Virus record (IMG/VR): IMGVR_UViG_3300024306_000548
Span: 1-21,251 of that record
Source of the DNA: a virus
DNA length: 21,251 bases
Strand: one strand, 5' to 3'
Both the position numbers and the translations under genes were made by a program. The notes under the pieces are model-generated. The model saw only the letters and a program-made list of their open reading frames with translations, made no database searches and was not told where the DNA came from. Positions 5,578 through 12,744 of the stretch are shown here, in pieces (position 1 is the stretch's first letter; every line of letters starts with the position of its first letter).

Positions 5578-5652
5578 GCGCTCGGTTACTGGCGGTCGGT
5601 TAGGAGACTCTAAATCTCTGGTTGGCGGGTTCGATTCCCGTCGAGCGCACCA
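5578..5652 (+). tRNA. tRNA with CUA anticodon (amber suppressor)
   Basis: Acceptor GCGCTCG (5578-5584) pairs fully with CGAGCGC (5642-5648), followed by A73 and an encoded CCA (5650-5652). Anticodon arm: GGAGA/TCTCT around loop CTCTAAA (5608-5614), with U33 then CUA at 5610-5612 and A37. Variable loop of 5 (GGTTG). T arm: GCGGG/CCCGT with loop TTCGATT. The D arm is weak: about 3 bp (ACT/GGT), and position 8 is not the usual U. CUA reads UAG stop codons. Reading the loop as Arg(UCU) or Leu(UAA) would lose U33. The charging amino acid is unclear (G1-C72, A73, short variable loop). It may act on the in-frame TAG at 6849. Confidence 0.85.
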
Positions 5653-6842: not shown

Positions 6843-7403
6843 ATGCAATAGATTGAATATGCTTGTAAGGATGTAGTGTTCCATTTTAACAAAAAACACT
6901 TAGAGGACCAATCAATACCTATGTGGGTCCTAAAAACACATGGGGAATCATTTTACGTTCATCACGTTACCTGCGAGATACCTTGGACTACCAAGGAAAC
7001 ACCAGACAACTCGCACACCAAAGGTAGCATCAAGATCAAAGACTGTTTGCTGACTATCGACGGCGACAACTCTGCTACTATTTCTACTCTCACTATATTT
7101 GATAAGATCCGGTTACGGAACCAGAAGCTTGGTATCACCCGAATTATATTTGGTTGGGGATCCACCATGCACAAGGCCTTGGCGGGAAACGAGTTTAAGC
7201 ATTCGCCATTCAAGAATGTAGAAGGTTCGTGTGGCAGCAGTTACATTATTTGCGATCTGCTGAAAAAAGAAGAAGCCACTTTGGCAGCATTGAAGTATCC
7301 AAACAGTTGGCGCATACTCAAACCAAACGAAGCCTATTATCAGAAATATGATCAGAAAGGCACAATTTGGGAAGAAGATGAACTTGACTTAGAAGAAGAA
7401 TAA
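6843..7403 (+). CDS. Phage protein with in-frame amber at codon 3
   Basis: ATG 6843 has an excellent SD (AAGGA, 8-9 bases upstream) but reads ATG CAA TAG ATT GAA TAT, then stays open for 183 further codons (IEYACKDVVFHFNKKHLED onward) to TAA at 7401. With UAG suppressed the protein is 186 aa. Otherwise translation could restart at GTG 6876, which has AAGG 5 bases ahead, giving 175 aa beginning MFHFNKKH. The 10 residues between TAG and GTG look like genuine coding sequence. The suppressor tRNA at 5578 could decode this codon. The protein has an alpha/beta pattern, a Gly/Ser-rich GWGST, and an acidic tail EEDELDLEEE. Function unknown. Confidence 0.7.
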
Positions 7404-7412
7404 ATATATAAT
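7384..7412 (+). promoter_or_regulatory. Consensus sigma70-like promoter of the tmRNA
   Basis: TTGACT (7384-7389), 17-bp spacer, TATAAT (7407-7412), inside the end of the preceding gene. AATAAATA (7399-7406) overlaps it as a possible late box. Predicted start is about 7419, just before the acceptor piece. Confidence 0.7.
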
Positions 7413-7418
7413 GTAAGT

Positions 7419-7740
7419 TATTGCTGTATGAAGCGGAAGGAAAAGTGTTCTGGACGTGGGTTCGAGGCCCACCACCTCCACCTAAGTGTATAAGGTATAT
7501 TTAGGTGGGGGTGAATTCTGGTTTCGACAGGGCAAAGAGTAGAGAAGTGGACAGCACGGTAAGGCAGAAACCGTAGGGTTGGGGTTTCCCGGCCGTAGAC
7601 GCAAAAAAAGTAATCGCAAACGACGATTCATTTGACTTCGCAGCACTAAGCTTCACAGGTAACACTGTAGGCGGTCGTGTTGCACTAGCAGCCTAAGAAA
7701 CTGCAAGTCTGGGGTAGCTATACCTTATAACCCAAAATAG
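7419..7740 (+). ncRNA. ssrA: Circularly permuted (two-piece) tmRNA
   Basis: The 3' tRNA half comes first. Acceptor piece ~7419-7482: T arm GTGGG/CCCAC around TTCGAGG, then CACCTCC, discriminator A 7480 and CC 7481-7482 (the final A is not encoded). An intervening loop 7483-7506 follows. The coding piece from 7507 begins GGGGGTGAATTCTGG then TTTCGACAGGG. Acceptor stem 7507-7513/7473-7479 pairs 7 of 7 (one G-U), extended by 6-7 more pairs into the loop. ACAGCA (7551-7556) pairs with TGCTGT (7422-7427), the P2 helix that rejoins the two pieces. Pseudoknot 1 and the resume region resemble E. coli (AAAAAAAGTAATC then GCAAACGACG). It rescues stalled ribosomes and tags nascent chains; the 3' end of the coding piece is uncertain. 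Confidence 0.92.
7616..7696 (+). other. tmRNA tag reading frame (26 codons)
   Basis: Resume codon GCA 7616; the peptide begins ANDDSFDFAA, continues through LSFTGNT and ends GGRVALAA before TAA 7694-7696. The ANDD start and LAA end are the usual proteobacterial tag signature, LAA being the ClpXP/ClpAP recognition end. The usual tag is about 8-15 residues; here about 14 extra residues lie between a first FAAL and the terminal ALAA. Confidence 0.88.
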
Positions 7741-7741
7741 T

Positions 7742-7766
7742 AAAGGCTACTTCGGTAGCCTTTTTT
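7742..7766 (+). terminator. Rho-independent terminator of tmRNA
   Basis: AAAGGCTAC/GTAGCCTTT stem around a TTCG tetraloop, followed by a run of six T. Confidence 0.93.
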
Positions 7767-7767
7767 A

Positions 7768-7796
7768 TTGCACTCGCACAACAAAGACTATATACT
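7768..7796 (+). promoter_or_regulatory. Sigma70-like promoter of outer-membrane protein gene
   Basis: TTGCAC (7768-7773), 17-bp spacer, TATACT (7791-7796), beginning right behind the tmRNA terminator. Predicted start about 7803, inside the dyad at 7801-7826. Confidence 0.7.
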
Positions 7797-7800
7797 TGCT

Positions 7801-7826
7801 AATGATCAGTGATTTCACTAATCATT
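7801..7826 (+). promoter_or_regulatory. Operator-like dyad at the transcription start
   Basis: AATGAT, one base, AGTGA, TT, TCACT, one base, ATCATT: 11 of 12 positions per arm are symmetric around 7813/7814. It lies over the start point of the promoter at 7768-7796, the classic place for a repressor. The centre of two bases is too tight for an RNA hairpin loop, so a protein-binding DNA site is more likely. Its AATGAT half-site recurs upstream of pqqA. Confidence 0.55.
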
Positions 7827-7890
7827 TGTCGTGATGTTATCAAATTAATACAGACAGTAAGACACACGATCTCACATAAGGAAATTAAAG

Positions 7891-8442
7891 ATGAAGAAAA
7901 TTGCATTAGCAACAGTATTGGTTTTGGCCGCTTCGGTAGCCTCAGCCGCAGAAATGGGTCTAGAGTATAAGGACTATAACGGAGTAAATGGTGGCGACAA
8001 TGCCAATGGTTACAGTTTAACTGTAGCAGGCAATGTAGCACCTGGCATCAAGTTAGATGCTAAATTCCAAAATAAACAAGTCGATGGAACTAACACCTTG
8101 TCAACTCGTTTAGAAACAGGTGTAACTGGTTCTGCTACTATTTCTGGTCCTGTATCAGCATATGTTCGTGGTGCAGTCGGCGAGAAGTTCACTAATACCA
8201 CAGACTTTTCATACTACTCAATCGAACCGGGTGTAGCGGTCAAACAAGGTCCAGTTGGTGTTAGCCTAGGTTGGAGATATCGTGATGCATTCAACGATGC
8301 TAACGGTGACCAGACCAGAACATGGCGGGCTAAACTAGGTTACGATCTAACCAAAGTAGACAATGTCTATGTAGGTTACGACCGTCAACGAGGTGACAGC
8401 GACTATAACGCTTGGCGCATTGGCTACGTAAGAAGTTTCTAA
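7891..8442 (+). CDS. Small outer-membrane beta-barrel protein
   Basis: 183 aa. A signal peptide of about 19 residues (MKKIALATVLVLAASVASA) is cleaved before AEMG. The rest alternates polar and hydrophobic residues in strand-length blocks, rich in Gly, Asn and Tyr. The chain ends YVRSF, with the C-terminal Phe that BAM recognises. The size suits an 8-stranded barrel. SD AAGGAA precedes ATG. It has its own promoter, operator dyad and terminator, so it is a single-gene cassette. A phage copy could mask receptors (superinfection exclusion) or alter permeability; both are inference. It could also be a host-derived porin fragment. Confidence 0.85.
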   Translation: MKKIALATVLVLAASVASAAEMGLEYKDYNGVNGGDNANGYSLTVAGNVAPGIKLDAKFQNKQVDGTNTLSTRLETGVTGSATISGPVSAYVRGAVGEKFTNTTDFSYYSIEPGVAVKQGPVGVSLGWRYRDAFNDANGDQTRTWRAKLGYDLTKVDNVYVGYDRQRGDSDYNAWRIGYVRSF

Positions 8443-8459
8443 TCCAATTAGATTCCACC

Positions 8460-8482
8460 AAAGGCCCCTAAGGGGCCTTTTT
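8460..8482 (+). terminator. Rho-independent terminator
   Basis: AAAGGCCCC/GGGGCCTTT with loop TAA and five T; ends the outer-membrane protein unit. Confidence 0.94.
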
Positions 8483-8545
8483 ATTTTCCAAAACGTTATT
8501 GATTTTTTCTATTAGCGTTATTAAAAAATATTTAGGAAAAACCTA

Positions 8546-8575
8546 TTGATTTTACGTTTTAATAGGATATATAAT
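8546..8575 (+). promoter_or_regulatory. Sigma70-like promoter of the peroxide-defence operon
   Basis: TTGATT (8546-8551), 18-bp spacer, TATAAT (8570-8575). An inverted repeat CCTATT (8542-8547) / AATAGG (8561-8566) brackets the -35 to spacer region and could be a regulator site. The leader to ATG 8631 is about 48 bases, with SD AAGGAG. Confidence 0.7.
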
Positions 8576-8630
8576 ACACACATAGAACAGAAGTTCTTAA
8601 AAGTTTTCAAACACACACAAGGAGATTGAA

Positions 8631-9164
8631 ATGAAAACAGTTGGTAATAAACTAGAAAAATTTGCCGTAACAGGAGTTAATCCAGGTAAGGATGATTTTT
8701 TCACAATTACAGACGAATCATTTGCTGGCAAGTGGAAAGTAATCGTTTACTATCCAAAGGACTTTACATTCGTATGTCCAACTGAAATCGTTGCATATGA
8801 TAAACTATTCCAAGACTTTGCTGACCGTGATGCTGTATTGTTGACTGGTTCAACAGACAACGAGTTCTGCAAACTTGCATGGCAAGCTGCACACGAGGAT
8901 CTAAAGAAGATCAAGCATATTCAATTCGCTGACACACAGCGTGGTGAACTAAGTCTTATTGAGCAACTAGGTGTATTCTATGCTCCAGCCGGTGCTGCAC
9001 TTCGCGCCACATTCATCGTTGACCCGGACAACGTTATCCAACACGTTACTGTCAACAACTTGAACGTTGGTCGTAGCCCAGAAGAAACTCTACGTATTCT
9101 TGATGCGCTACAAACTGGCGAACTTTGTGCATGTAACCGCACAGTCGGCGGCGAAACACTGTAA
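8631..9164 (+). CDS. ahpC: Peroxiredoxin AhpC, mycobacterial type
   Basis: 177-aa 2-Cys peroxiredoxin that reduces H2O2 and organic peroxides. Peroxidatic C49 sits in PKDFTFVCPTE. The C-terminal ELCACNR gives resolving-cysteine candidates C166 and C168, the CxC arrangement of Mycobacterium AhpC, which is recycled by AhpD rather than AhpF. Consistently, an ahpD gene lies 500 bases downstream in the same run. The chain is slightly shorter than bacterial AhpC (~187-195). Good SD (AAGGAG). The stop overlaps the next ATG (TAATG). Confidence 0.95.
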   Translation: MKTVGNKLEKFAVTGVNPGKDDFFTITDESFAGKWKVIVYYPKDFTFVCPTEIVAYDKLFQDFADRDAVLLTGSTDNEFCKLAWQAAHEDLKKIKHIQFADTQRGELSLIEQLGVFYAPAGAALRATFIVDPDNVIQHVTVNNLNVGRSPEETLRILDALQTGELCACNRTVGGETL

Positions 9165-9496
9165 TGTATTATCACGCACACGTCTACTGGAAAACACAAG
9201 AACAGCGTTTGATTGCTCTTGTGCTTAGAGACATGCTTTCTAAGTTAGACTGTTCGTTAGGCAGGGTTTGGGATGAGCCCATTGGCCCCCATCCTCTGCC
9301 AATGTATCAAGTTAACTTTAATAGTAAAAATTATAAAGAGGTTGTTTCGTTACTTAAAGATAAGAATATTAGCATTCTTATTCATGAAGACACAGGAGAC
9401 GACCTGCGTGACCATACAGAAGGTGCTCGTTGGATAGGTCAAGAACTCAAACTTGACCTTGAATGGTTAGAAAAATACACAAGGAGTAAAAAATGA
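9164..9496 (+). CDS. DOPA 4,5-dioxygenase-family protein
   Basis: 110 aa, matching the small DOPA-dioxygenase-like family: YHAHVYW (H4, H6), GRVWDEPIGPHPLPMYQV (H43), LIHEDTGDDLRDHTEGARWIG (H74, H84) and LDLEWLE. These His residues are the usual metal-site candidates. Bacterial members are mostly uncharacterised, so ring cleavage of a catechol is known only for plant/fungal relatives. It sits between ahpC and ahpD, overlapping both neighbours by 1 and 4 bases, which implies a role in the same oxidative-stress unit. That role is inference. Confidence 0.88.
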   Translation: MYYHAHVYWKTQEQRLIALVLRDMLSKLDCSLGRVWDEPIGPHPLPMYQVNFNSKNYKEVVSLLKDKNISILIHEDTGDDLRDHTEGARWIGQELKLDLEWLEKYTRSKK

Positions 9497-9654
9497 AACC
9501 AGTATTGATACAAAACTTAATCAAACACAACAAGGGAAAGTATAAGGCAACTCCTATTACTGAAGAAGACCGTAAACAGCATGATCGTGCTATGGGAAAG
9601 TTTATCTTTTGGTTTGTGGCATTTTTGTTTATTACGGGTCTCGTAATTGCCTAA
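9493..9654 (+). CDS. Small single-pass membrane protein (53 aa)
   Basis: Begins ATGA on the previous stop, with AAGGAG ahead. A basic N-terminal half (LIKHNKGKYKATPITEEDRKQHDR) precedes one C-terminal membrane segment (FIFWFVAFLFITGLVIA), so it looks C-tail anchored with the bulk in the cytoplasm. No family recognised. It is embedded in the peroxide-defence operon. Confidence 0.75.
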   Translation: MKPVLIQNLIKHNKGKYKATPITEEDRKQHDRAMGKFIFWFVAFLFITGLVIA

Positions 9655-9664
9655 GGAGACAAAC

Positions 9665-10180
9665 ATGACAGCATGGGTAGATACAATTAAAGAAGCATTA
9701 CCTGAGTATGCTAAAGACACTAAACTGAATCTCGATTCAGTCGTGAAGCGTTCAACCCTACCGCAGGAAGTAGCAGAAGGTTGTGCCGTGGCAGCAGCAA
9801 TGGCTACAGGCAACGGAAAATTGGTTAGCTTTATTCAAAGCGGTATGGAAAATACTATAGAGAGAGATGCTGCCTTAACAGCCGCAAGTCTAATGGGTAT
9901 GAACAATGTTTGGTATCCGTATGTAGAAATGGTAGACGATCCAGCACTTAAGGGATTGCCACCTCAGCTACGTATGAATGCTATCAGCACACACGGGGGC
10001 ACGACACAGGACCGTTTTGAAGCTTATGCTTTATCGGCCAGTATCGTAGGCAAATGCCATTTCTGTGTGGCAGCACATTATGATACTTTAAAGAAGGCAG
10101 GTTACACCGTAGAACAATTACGTGATATTGGACGTATAGCGGCAGTTATCACTAGTGTGGCAAAGGTGTTAAACAGTTAA
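9665..10180 (+). CDS. ahpD: Alkylhydroperoxidase AhpD
   Basis: 171 aa from ATG 9665 (SD AAGGAG); a longer TTG start lacks support. AhpD landmarks: E119, C131-HF-C134 and H138 in KCHFCVAAHYDTLKKAG. In Mycobacterium AhpD, Cys130/Cys133 with Glu118 and His137 relay electrons from lipoamide dehydrogenase/SucB to AhpC. Here the residue before the second Cys is Phe, while the His follows the first Cys; from memory the mycobacterial order is the reverse. The pairing with ahpC gives the phage a complete AhpF-independent peroxide reductase that would draw on host lipoamide. Confidence 0.93.
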   Translation: MTAWVDTIKEALPEYAKDTKLNLDSVVKRSTLPQEVAEGCAVAAAMATGNGKLVSFIQSGMENTIERDAALTAASLMGMNNVWYPYVEMVDDPALKGLPPQLRMNAISTHGGTTQDRFEAYALSASIVGKCHFCVAAHYDTLKKAGYTVEQLRDIGRIAAVITSVAKVLNS

Positions 10181-10186
10181 TAAATA
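10179..10186 (+). promoter_or_regulatory. T4-type late promoter candidate
   Basis: AATAAATA overlaps the ahpD stop codon; expected start about 10192, followed by SD AAGGAGG for the small gene at 10209. No sigma70 -35 seen. Confidence 0.5.
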
Positions 10187-10208
10187 TTAGTCAAGGAGGG
10201 GCAAGACT

Positions 10209-10367
10209 ATGAAACAGAAAAAGCTCATAGCGGAACTGTATAAGGCTTGCTTCGACCACGACGCCAAGAAGATGGCCGAACTCAAACAAATTGAGTTCCA
10301 GAAAATCTTGAAACGCAAGGCCGAAGGTAAGCATTTTACACACCGATGGACCGTGGTTCAGATTTAA
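10209..10367 (+). CDS. Small basic phage protein (52 aa)
   Basis: SD AAGGAGGGG then ATG 10209. It starts [21 protein letters not shown] and ends [10 protein letters not shown]. It is a helical Lys-rich small protein with alternating Lys/Glu; function unknown. It stands alone between two late-type boxes. Confidence 0.72.
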
Positions 10368-10383
10368 TTACTTGTAACTGATC

Positions 10384-10445
10384 TGTAATATTACACACAG
10401 TAAAGAGCGGTAAATATTAGCACTATGCTAAAAACTTACCGCTCT
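10384..10445 (+). promoter_or_regulatory. Palindrome and nested inverted repeat around a start codon
   Basis: TGTAATATTACA (10384-10395) is a perfect 12-bp palindrome. AGAGCGGTAA (10404-10413) pairs perfectly with TTACCGCTCT (10436-10445). Inside, TTAGCA (10417-10422) pairs with TGCTAA (10426-10431) around CTA. The ATG (10425-10427) is therefore partly in the inner stem, and the right outer arm falls in codons 4-7. No SD is near the start. A GGTAAATA late box (10409-10416) lies in the left arm. Confidence 0.6.
10409..10416 (+). promoter_or_regulatory. T4-type late promoter candidate, nearly leaderless
   Basis: GGTAAATA; by T4 spacing the RNA would start near 10422, two or three bases before the ATG at 10425. 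It shares the GGTAAATA sequence with 17103-17110, which also lies just ahead of an SD-less start. Confidence 0.45.
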
Positions 10446-11270
10446 ATTTTTATCTCAGATATACATTTGGGAACCCGAGATTGTAAAGCAGAACAACTAA
10501 ACAACTTTTTAAAGCACAATACTTGCGAAACACTTTATCTAGTTGGCGACATTATCGATGCATGGCGCATACAACAAAATAAATGGCGATGGAAACAAAG
10601 CCACACGAATGTCGTTAGAAGAATCATGGGACACGCCAAACGCGGCACTCGAGTCGTATATATAGCAGGTAATCATGACGAATTCTTAAGACCATTGATG
10701 CCTTATGGTATCGGTTTTGGTAACATAGAAGTTGTTAATCAAATAGAACATATCGGTGTAGACACTAAACACTACCTTGTGGTTCACGGAGATCTATTCG
10801 ATGGTATTACTAGACTAGCACCTTGGTTGAGTTTCTTAGGAGACAAAGCCTACGATTTTGTTCTAATGTTAAACAACAAGTTTAATTGGATTCGACATCG
10901 TATGGGTTTTGGCTATTGGAGTTTATCTAAATATCTCAAGAGTCGTGTTAAGAAAGCCGTAGATTTTATATTCCAGTTTGAAAAGAATCTAGTAGCCTAC
11001 TGTCGAAAGCGTGGGTTTGATGGTGTCATCTGCGGACATATACATCATGCAGAGATCAAAGAGATAGACGGTATGATTTACATGAATGACGGCGATTGGG
11101 TAGAATCAATGACGGCTCTGGTAGAACATCATGACGGTCATTGGGAAATCATAACTTGGACCAAGGAGCGGGATGATGTGGTTAATGATATTAATAGCAG
11201 TTCACATAAACAATCCTCAAGACGTGCCAGGAAGGATAACTCTACAGTTTCAAACACAGCAACACTGTGA
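10425..11270 (+). CDS. LpxH-like metallophosphoesterase (UDP-2,3-diacylglucosamine diphosphatase family)
   Basis: 281 aa with the calcineurin-type dimetal signature in order: SDIHLG (D12, H14), VGDIID (D42), AGNHDE (N83, H84), VVHGD (H121) and CGHIHH (H205, H207). IHLGTRDCKAEQL and the spacing match the LpxH/YbbF-like branch that cleaves UDP-2,3-diacylglucosamine in lipid A synthesis. The Ser/Arg/Lys-rich tail after residue ~255 is unusual. In a phage it could rework lipid A or act on another pyrophosphate; the exact substrate is not shown. The start lies within a nested hairpin without SD. A glycosyltransferase follows, which supports an envelope role. Confidence 0.85.
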   Translation: MLKTYRSIFISDIHLGTRDCKAEQLNNFLKHNTCETLYLVGDIIDAWRIQQNKWRWKQSHTNVVRRIMGHAKRGTRVVYIAGNHDEFLRPLMPYGIGFGNIEVVNQIEHIGVDTKHYLVVHGDLFDGITRLAPWLSFLGDKAYDFVLMLNNKFNWIRHRMGFGYWSLSKYLKSRVKKAVDFIFQFEKNLVAYCRKRGFDGVICGHIHHAEIKEIDGMIYMNDGDWVESMTALVEHHDGHWEIITWTKERDDVVNDINSSSHKQSSRRARKDNSTVSNTATL

Positions 11271-12333: not shown

Positions 12334-12744
12334 ATGTTAGAATGTTTAATTTTAGGTGATAGTATCGCAGTTGGAACAGCTAACGTTCGCAAAGAATGCG
12401 TGAGTTATAGTGTTGGCGGAATCAATACTAACGGATGGAATAAAAAATTTTCCGATAAAGAATTATTGGCCGGAACAGTTATTATTAGTTTGGGCACTAA
12501 CGATCATAGCGGAGTCCATACTTTTAAAGAATTGAGTGCAATGAGATCTCGTGTAACGGCATCTCGTGTATATTGGATTCTTCCTCCCTGCAATGACAAA
12601 TTCTGTAAGCCTCATGTAAATGACGTTGTAGAAATTATTGCTCGCAGTCGCGGTGATATCGTTATCAAAACGGATCGACTACAAAAAGATGCTATTCATC
12701 CTAGCTGGGCAGGCTATAAAGAACTAGCGGAGAAAACACGTTGA
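12334..12744 (+). CDS. Small SGNH/GDSL hydrolase
   Basis: 136 aa with the conserved blocks: LGDSI (catalytic Ser10), VGG around residue 28, LGTND (54-57), and DAIHPSWAGY with D119 and H122 completing the triad. It is shorter than typical bacterial SGNH esterases (~180-200) but all blocks are present. No signal peptide, so it is cytoplasmic. SD AAAGG. It overlaps the next start (TTGA). Substrate unknown; removal of acyl groups from glycans fits the neighbouring sugar genes. Confidence 0.85.
   Translation: MLECLILGDSIAVGTANVRKECVSYSVGGINTNGWNKKFSDKELLAGTVIISLGTNDHSGVHTFKELSAMRSRVTASRVYWILPPCNDKFCKPHVNDVVEIIARSRGDIVIKTDRLQKDAIHPSWAGYKELAEKTR

Follow-up and report, generated by a model that had tools for sequence, protein, structure and literature searches.

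A putative peroxide-defence transcription unit, ahpC-ahpD, with an interval for variable cargo in uncultured phages

A virus record from IMG/VR (IMGVR_UViG_3300024306_000548; the whole stretch of 21,251 nt is termed the window) carries on its + strand, from position 8546 to 10180, a tightly packed series comprising a promoter, ahpC, a gene for a DODA-like protein, a gene for a 53-aa peptide, and ahpD. The first gene (8631-9164) encodes a 2-Cys peroxiredoxin of 177 aa (PF00578, 7e-21) with cysteines at positions 49, 80, 166 and 168 and a CAC tail; the DODA-like gene (9164-9496) encodes 110 aa (PF08883, 3e-26) with histidines H4, H6, H43, H74 and H84; the 53-aa peptide (9493-9654), a possible tail anchor judging by eye from its hydrophobic C-terminus, has no match in Pfam or PHROG; and ahpD (9665-10180, ATG start at 9665) encodes 171 aa (PF02627, 4e-10) with E119, C131, C134 and H138. 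The tight coupling reported in a preliminary description of this DNA is borne out on this single strand by overlaps of 1 nt (TAATG) between ahpC and the DODA-like gene and of 4 nt between the latter and the peptide gene, and by a spacing of 10 nt from there to ahpD. The sequence AAGGAG precedes ahpC, the peptide gene and ahpD, but not the DODA-like gene; because that gene starts within the TAATG junction and has no Shine-Dalgarno sequence of its own, its translation probably depends on that of ahpC. A 53-aa protein 39% identical to the window peptide directly follows ahpC in another viral locus (L277).

The peroxidatic residue of AhpC, C49, sits in an FVCP motif, and C166 and C168 of the CAC tail are the resolving cysteines. 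The best PDB matches are the Mycobacterium tuberculosis proteins for both AhpC (2bmx, 5e-42) and AhpD (1gu9/1knc, 2e-25). An FVCP motif, a C-terminal CxC and an adjacent AhpD with its Glu, CxxC and His are all present, features of the AhpD-dependent AhpC of the M. tuberculosis type; the earlier assignment of the protein to this type is supported, and the numbering then given for the four AhpD residues is correct when counted from the ATG at 9665. These attributes extend well beyond the window. We assembled 161 viral loci (the best 80 for each gene, six DODA loci and the window, with overlaps), which encode 120 distinct AhpC-AhpD protein pairs. The CxC tail occurs in all 120; FVCP occurs in 117, the alignment of the other three beginning only past this motif; and the AhpD motif E-x11-CxxCxxxH occurs in 116, the other four being truncated by the contig end. 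Purifying selection is evident in ahpC, ahpD and the DODA-like gene: nonsynonymous change in ahpC lies far below synonymous change (pN 0.02-0.15, pS 0.54-0.73), although the synonymous sites of ahpD are saturated.

A source of electrons is less readily found within these genomes. Searches of 16 records (the window and 15 relatives, some of them fragments) gave no match to AhpF, lipoamide dehydrogenase (Lpd) or a lipoyl domain; electrons would therefore come from the host, and the reducing power of the phage AhpC-AhpD pair appears to be borrowed from the infected cell. In the earlier portrayal of a complete, AhpF-free pathway, completeness is thus not supported. An account of mycobacteria gives the corresponding electron chain as NADH, Lpd, DlaT, AhpD and AhpC (PMC12028322).

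By its gene content the contig is phage DNA. It includes matches to phage-type NrdA, NrdB, exonuclease and endolysin, and 19 of its 32 called CDS have relatives in a single 20.5-kb locus (L063), part of a 353,123-base record (G016) that carries T4-type gp23 capsid and terminase genes. No structural gene, gp23 and terminase included, was seen within the 21-kb window. Among 38 ahpC-ahpD records tested, gp23 was found in 14 and terminase in 11; gp23 was absent from 24, as it may be from fragments, and the records longer than 250 kb carried gp23 in seven of seven cases and terminase in six of seven. The source is probably an uncultured, water-borne, T4-like jumbo phage with a betaproteobacterial host. 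Our best guess of the host as a betaproteobacterium draws on the nearest cellular AhpC and AhpD, which come from Burkholderiales, and on a permuted tmRNA (7370-7767, + strand) that fits the betaproteobacterial model (RF04321, 118 bits; RF01850, 103 bits). The tmRNA gene has its own promoter (7384-7412) and terminator (7742-7763) and a predicted 26-aa tag, ANDDSFDFAALSFTGNTVGGRVALAA. Of 120 representative phage loci, 39 encode a tmRNA; in 27 of those 39 it shares a strand with ahpC and lies upstream of it by no more than 2 kb, and many of the phage tags contain an extra FTGNTV-containing stretch ahead of the usual ALAA end. A tRNA with a CTA anticodon, labelled Pyl by ARAGORN and possibly an amber suppressor, lies at 5578-5652 (+ strand) and recurs at further phage loci with ahpC (11 of the 120 representatives); TAG ends only one of the 32 called window CDS. 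The suggested link to methanol or methylotroph metabolism found no evidence.

The pair had been called unusual in phage, which holds for named phages and fails for uncultured ones. Among 50,697 named phage records there was no match to AhpD and none to DODA, and the 17 AhpC matches were distant, being 28-47% identical to the window protein. The pair is common in IMG/VR, with at least 598 AhpC places confirmed (598 of the 600 pattern matches listed) and at least 580 AhpD places (580 of 600 listed). Both genes lie on one strand with ahpC first in 155 of the 161 viral loci, three others having ahpC alone and three ahpD alone, a recurrence that places the arrangement beyond chance. Since large water-borne phages retain the pair and AhpD is absent from the named records, work on cultured phages would miss it. 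In the open-access literature searched, no phage was described as carrying both ahpC and ahpD.

The same two genes form a familiar bacterial operon. The best 80 bacterial AhpC loci belong mostly to Burkholderiales or their relatives, and in 79 of them (one, L170, was set aside) ahpD lies 14-197 nt downstream in 70 and was not found in the DNA examined in nine. The locus set aside is a 5.9-kb contig binned as Bacteroidota, with an AhpC 82% identical to that of the window and other genes between ahpC and ahpD; it is probably a misbinned phage contig. A bacterial operon with DODA between ahpC and ahpD was sought and none was found in the bacterial loci searched; no DODA gene occurred at any of the best 80 bacterial AhpC loci, with flanks of up to 6 kb, and an initial pattern scan of genome contigs that included DODA gave 42 pattern matches, none confirmed. 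The order ahpC-dodA-ahpD, for which a synteny search had been proposed, recurs in viral lineages and in none of these 80 loci. In the AhpC tree a branch with SH-aLRT 100 separates all 89 phage rows from the 42 bacterial rows; the AhpD tree needs two changes, and one of its bacterial-labelled rows is the probable phage contig just described. A first AhpC tree held 60 of the 89 phage rows and a second all 89, the AhpD tree held 60 of 100, and the trees omitted near-identical rows and AhpC sequences no longer than 165 aa. The pair was probably acquired once, from an ahpC-ahpD operon like that of Burkholderiales; this single origin is valid only for near relatives of the window phage, because the phage AhpC sample was centred on the window.

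Upstream of ahpC the phage sequences share features that are new relative to the bacterial operon. In the window a sigma-70-like promoter, TTGATT-N18-TATAAT, occupies 8546-8575 (+ strand, 8546 being its first base) and matches the consensus; an inverted repeat with 6-bp arms, CCTATT...AATAGG, surrounds its -35 hexamer (8542-8566, +); and the leader contains a hairpin, AGAAC-AGAA-GTTCT (8584-8597, +), with the stem pattern of phage ahpC leaders. Controls were shuffles of each sequence itself, mononucleotide for the sigma-70 sites and dinucleotide for stems and inverted repeats; the promoter and leader rows share ancestry, so that the following counts are not independent. Of 109 distinct phage sequences upstream of ahpC, 73 have a TTGATT-N17/18-TATAAT-like site (at least 9 of 12 positions) at 40-72 nt from the gene, and a sigma-70 site of at least 10 of 12 lies within 150 nt of ahpC in 56 of 114, as against 7.4% of shuffles; across window positions 7300-10700, consensus matches are no commoner than in shuffles. 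Stems of at least 5 bp occur within the first 32 nt after the -10 element in 60 of 74 phage ahpC leaders (shuffles 17.4, highest 29), as against a background frequency at other promoters in these loci (44 of 285; shuffles 41.8). The stems have 31 different 5' arms, and pairing has therefore been kept while sequence changed. Mean folding energy of the ahpC leaders is -4.89, compared with -2.20 for shuffles, 56 of 66 leaders falling below their own shuffle mean. RNAalifold, run on a MAFFT alignment of 66 ahpC leaders, returned no consensus hairpin, and for this reason the claim of a hairpin rests on the per-sequence stems, the shuffles and the 285 other promoters. Of the 74 phage ahpC promoters, 15 have inverted repeats of at least 7 bp around the -35 element, compared with 2.4 in shuffles; the figure for the other promoters is 11 of 285, and the repeats at ahpC promoters differ in sequence between phages. 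No OxyR-type site was seen by eye in the region upstream of ahpC. Judged by these patterns, ahpC in the phages is served by a sigma-70-like promoter of its own, followed by a leader hairpin whose sequence varies.

A second feature that sets the phages apart from the bacterial operon is the interval between ahpC and ahpD, which on present sequence comparisons is a cargo slot. Among 120 phage pairs it is shorter than 30 nt in 51, 30-200 nt in nine, 200-700 nt in 38 and longer than 700 nt in 22. The 105 inserted ORFs, named by scanning one representative of each named cluster, are mostly GDSL-like hydrolases (35) and class II aldolases (14), followed by DUF2061 (5), TerC (4), a cluster of I-TevI-type homing endonucleases (4), Bax1-I (3), DODA (3), SHMT (2), class V aminotransferase (2), cytochrome c (1) and others. 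Because the inserts span so many families, DODA is one cargo among many. The window has a GDSL-like gene as well, at 12334-12744 and hence outside the interval, whose relatives are the commonest insert there in other phages.

The 110-aa protein itself is a PF08883 DODA-like protein by profile (92.1 bits against a cut-off of 25) and by predicted fold, ring cleavage being putative. Its AlphaFold (AF2) model (pLDDT 94.7) matches 2peb_A (Z 18.0, rmsd 1.3 A over 105 residues) and 2p8i_A (Z 15.6), the next unrelated row scoring 7.2, and the five histidines are invariant in 17 DODA sequences. Two accounts of DODA enzymes (PMC12186922 and PMC13263728) compare them with LigB/YgiD, and in the text available from them activity of PF08883 is not established. 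A wider scan yielded 25 viral DODA loci, nine with ahpC and ahpD (six distinct lineages) and 16 without; the gene lies between ahpC and ahpD in five lineages and after ahpD in L277, and is absent from nine of nine large ahpC-ahpD records tested. At two loci with no ahpC nearby (L268:7324-8327 and L270:7489-8324) a PTPS (QueD-like) gene directly precedes the DODA-like gene, which hints at a connection with pterins or deazapurines; other viral DODA loci have Rieske or radical-SAM-like genes nearby, and QueE-like assignments there fall below Pfam cut-offs.

The reading we favour, and consider quite likely, is that these genes form a transcription unit with which an uncultured T4-like jumbo phage of a probable betaproteobacterial host defends against peroxide, and in which AhpD is recharged by the host lipoyl system. 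Host RNA polymerase would transcribe the unit from the sigma-70-type promoter, giving an mRNA with a short 5' hairpin. C49 of AhpC would reduce H2O2, organic hydroperoxides or peroxynitrite and form a disulfide with C166/C168, which AhpD would reduce via C131/C134 with E119 and H138, to be recharged in turn by lipoylated E2, lipoamide dehydrogenase and NADH of the host. During a long infection this could keep the infected cell functional, along with phage enzymes sensitive to oxidants, for example the class I ribonucleotide reductase whose gene lies about 5 kb upstream. The DODA-like protein and 53-aa peptide would be cargo inserted between ahpC and ahpD and translated with ahpC.

That the contig might instead be a fragment of bacterial chromosome bearing an ordinary operon is extremely improbable. 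The preliminary description had named this as what would undermine it, and ahpC-ahpD is indeed ordinary in Burkholderiales and their relatives (70 of the 79 bacterial loci); the window AhpC is only 62-69% identical to theirs, however, and the phage-type genes, the synteny with jumbo-phage records and the lack of DODA at all 80 bacterial loci argue for a phage. A narrower purpose for the pair, counter-defence that blunts an oxidative burst or a redox-triggered defence set off by infection, strikes us as rather unlikely: a host-type promoter might permit early expression, and the related phages are large and carry T4-type capsid genes, but nothing separates counter-defence from general peroxide removal.

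Similarly modest is the chance that the DODA-like protein is a working partner co-translated with AhpC, a metal-dependent enzyme removing autoxidising catechols or other sources of peroxide. Its invariant histidines, its position within a few genes of ahpC or ahpD in six lineages (the window species, L262, L263, L264, L265 and L277) and the TAATG junction with ahpC in the window, L262 and L264 favour such a role. Against it stand the 16 of 25 viral DODA loci lacking ahpC or ahpD within 8 kb, the PTPS gene directly upstream at two, the absence of DODA from all nine large records, and a slot that also takes GDSL-like, aldolase, TerC, SHMT and homing-endonuclease genes. The dioxygenase-like gene, earlier proposed as an added enzyme of the pathway, is better described as occasional cargo, and a part for it in peroxide removal is unsupported. 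It is quite improbable that the jumbo-phage group shares, as one ancestral whole, an anti-peroxide unit fed by host lipoyl electrons, with a hairpin controlling ahpC specifically and with DODA, where present, as a functional partner. Under the favoured reading of a peroxide-defence unit, phage peroxide defence would no longer be a matter of single peroxiredoxin genes but of two enzymes that together apparently need the host lipoyl-dehydrogenase hub, which yields a direct prediction of the host functions that the phage has to sustain during infection.

Several known systems resemble parts of this unit. Virus-encoded ahpC has been reported in Microcystis virus populations (PMC12542629), likewise as a virus-carried metabolic gene in freshwater, although the available portion of that report mentions neither ahpD nor an operon. 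Solved members of the PF08883 DOPA 4,5-dioxygenase family (2peb, 2nyh, 2p8i) share the fold and the five conserved histidines of the DODA-like protein, but the nearest cellular copies found are only 28-40% identical and do not adjoin ahpC. Chromosomal ahpC-ahpD operons of Burkholderiales (Cupriavidus, Achromobacter, Caballeronia) have the identical gene order and encode an AhpC 62-69% and an AhpD mostly 51-60% identical to the window proteins, yet their gap, always 14-197 nt in 70 loci, is too short for cargo. The peroxidase-peroxynitrite reductase AhpC/AhpD of M. tuberculosis provides the closest PDB relatives of both proteins, with peroxidatic Cys, CxC and Glu/CxxC/His present in each system; the phage AhpD has CHFC where that of M. 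tuberculosis has CSHC, and the phage pair differs further in being virus-borne, often with other genes inserted between, and in lacking an Lpd or lipoyl partner in the phage records searched.
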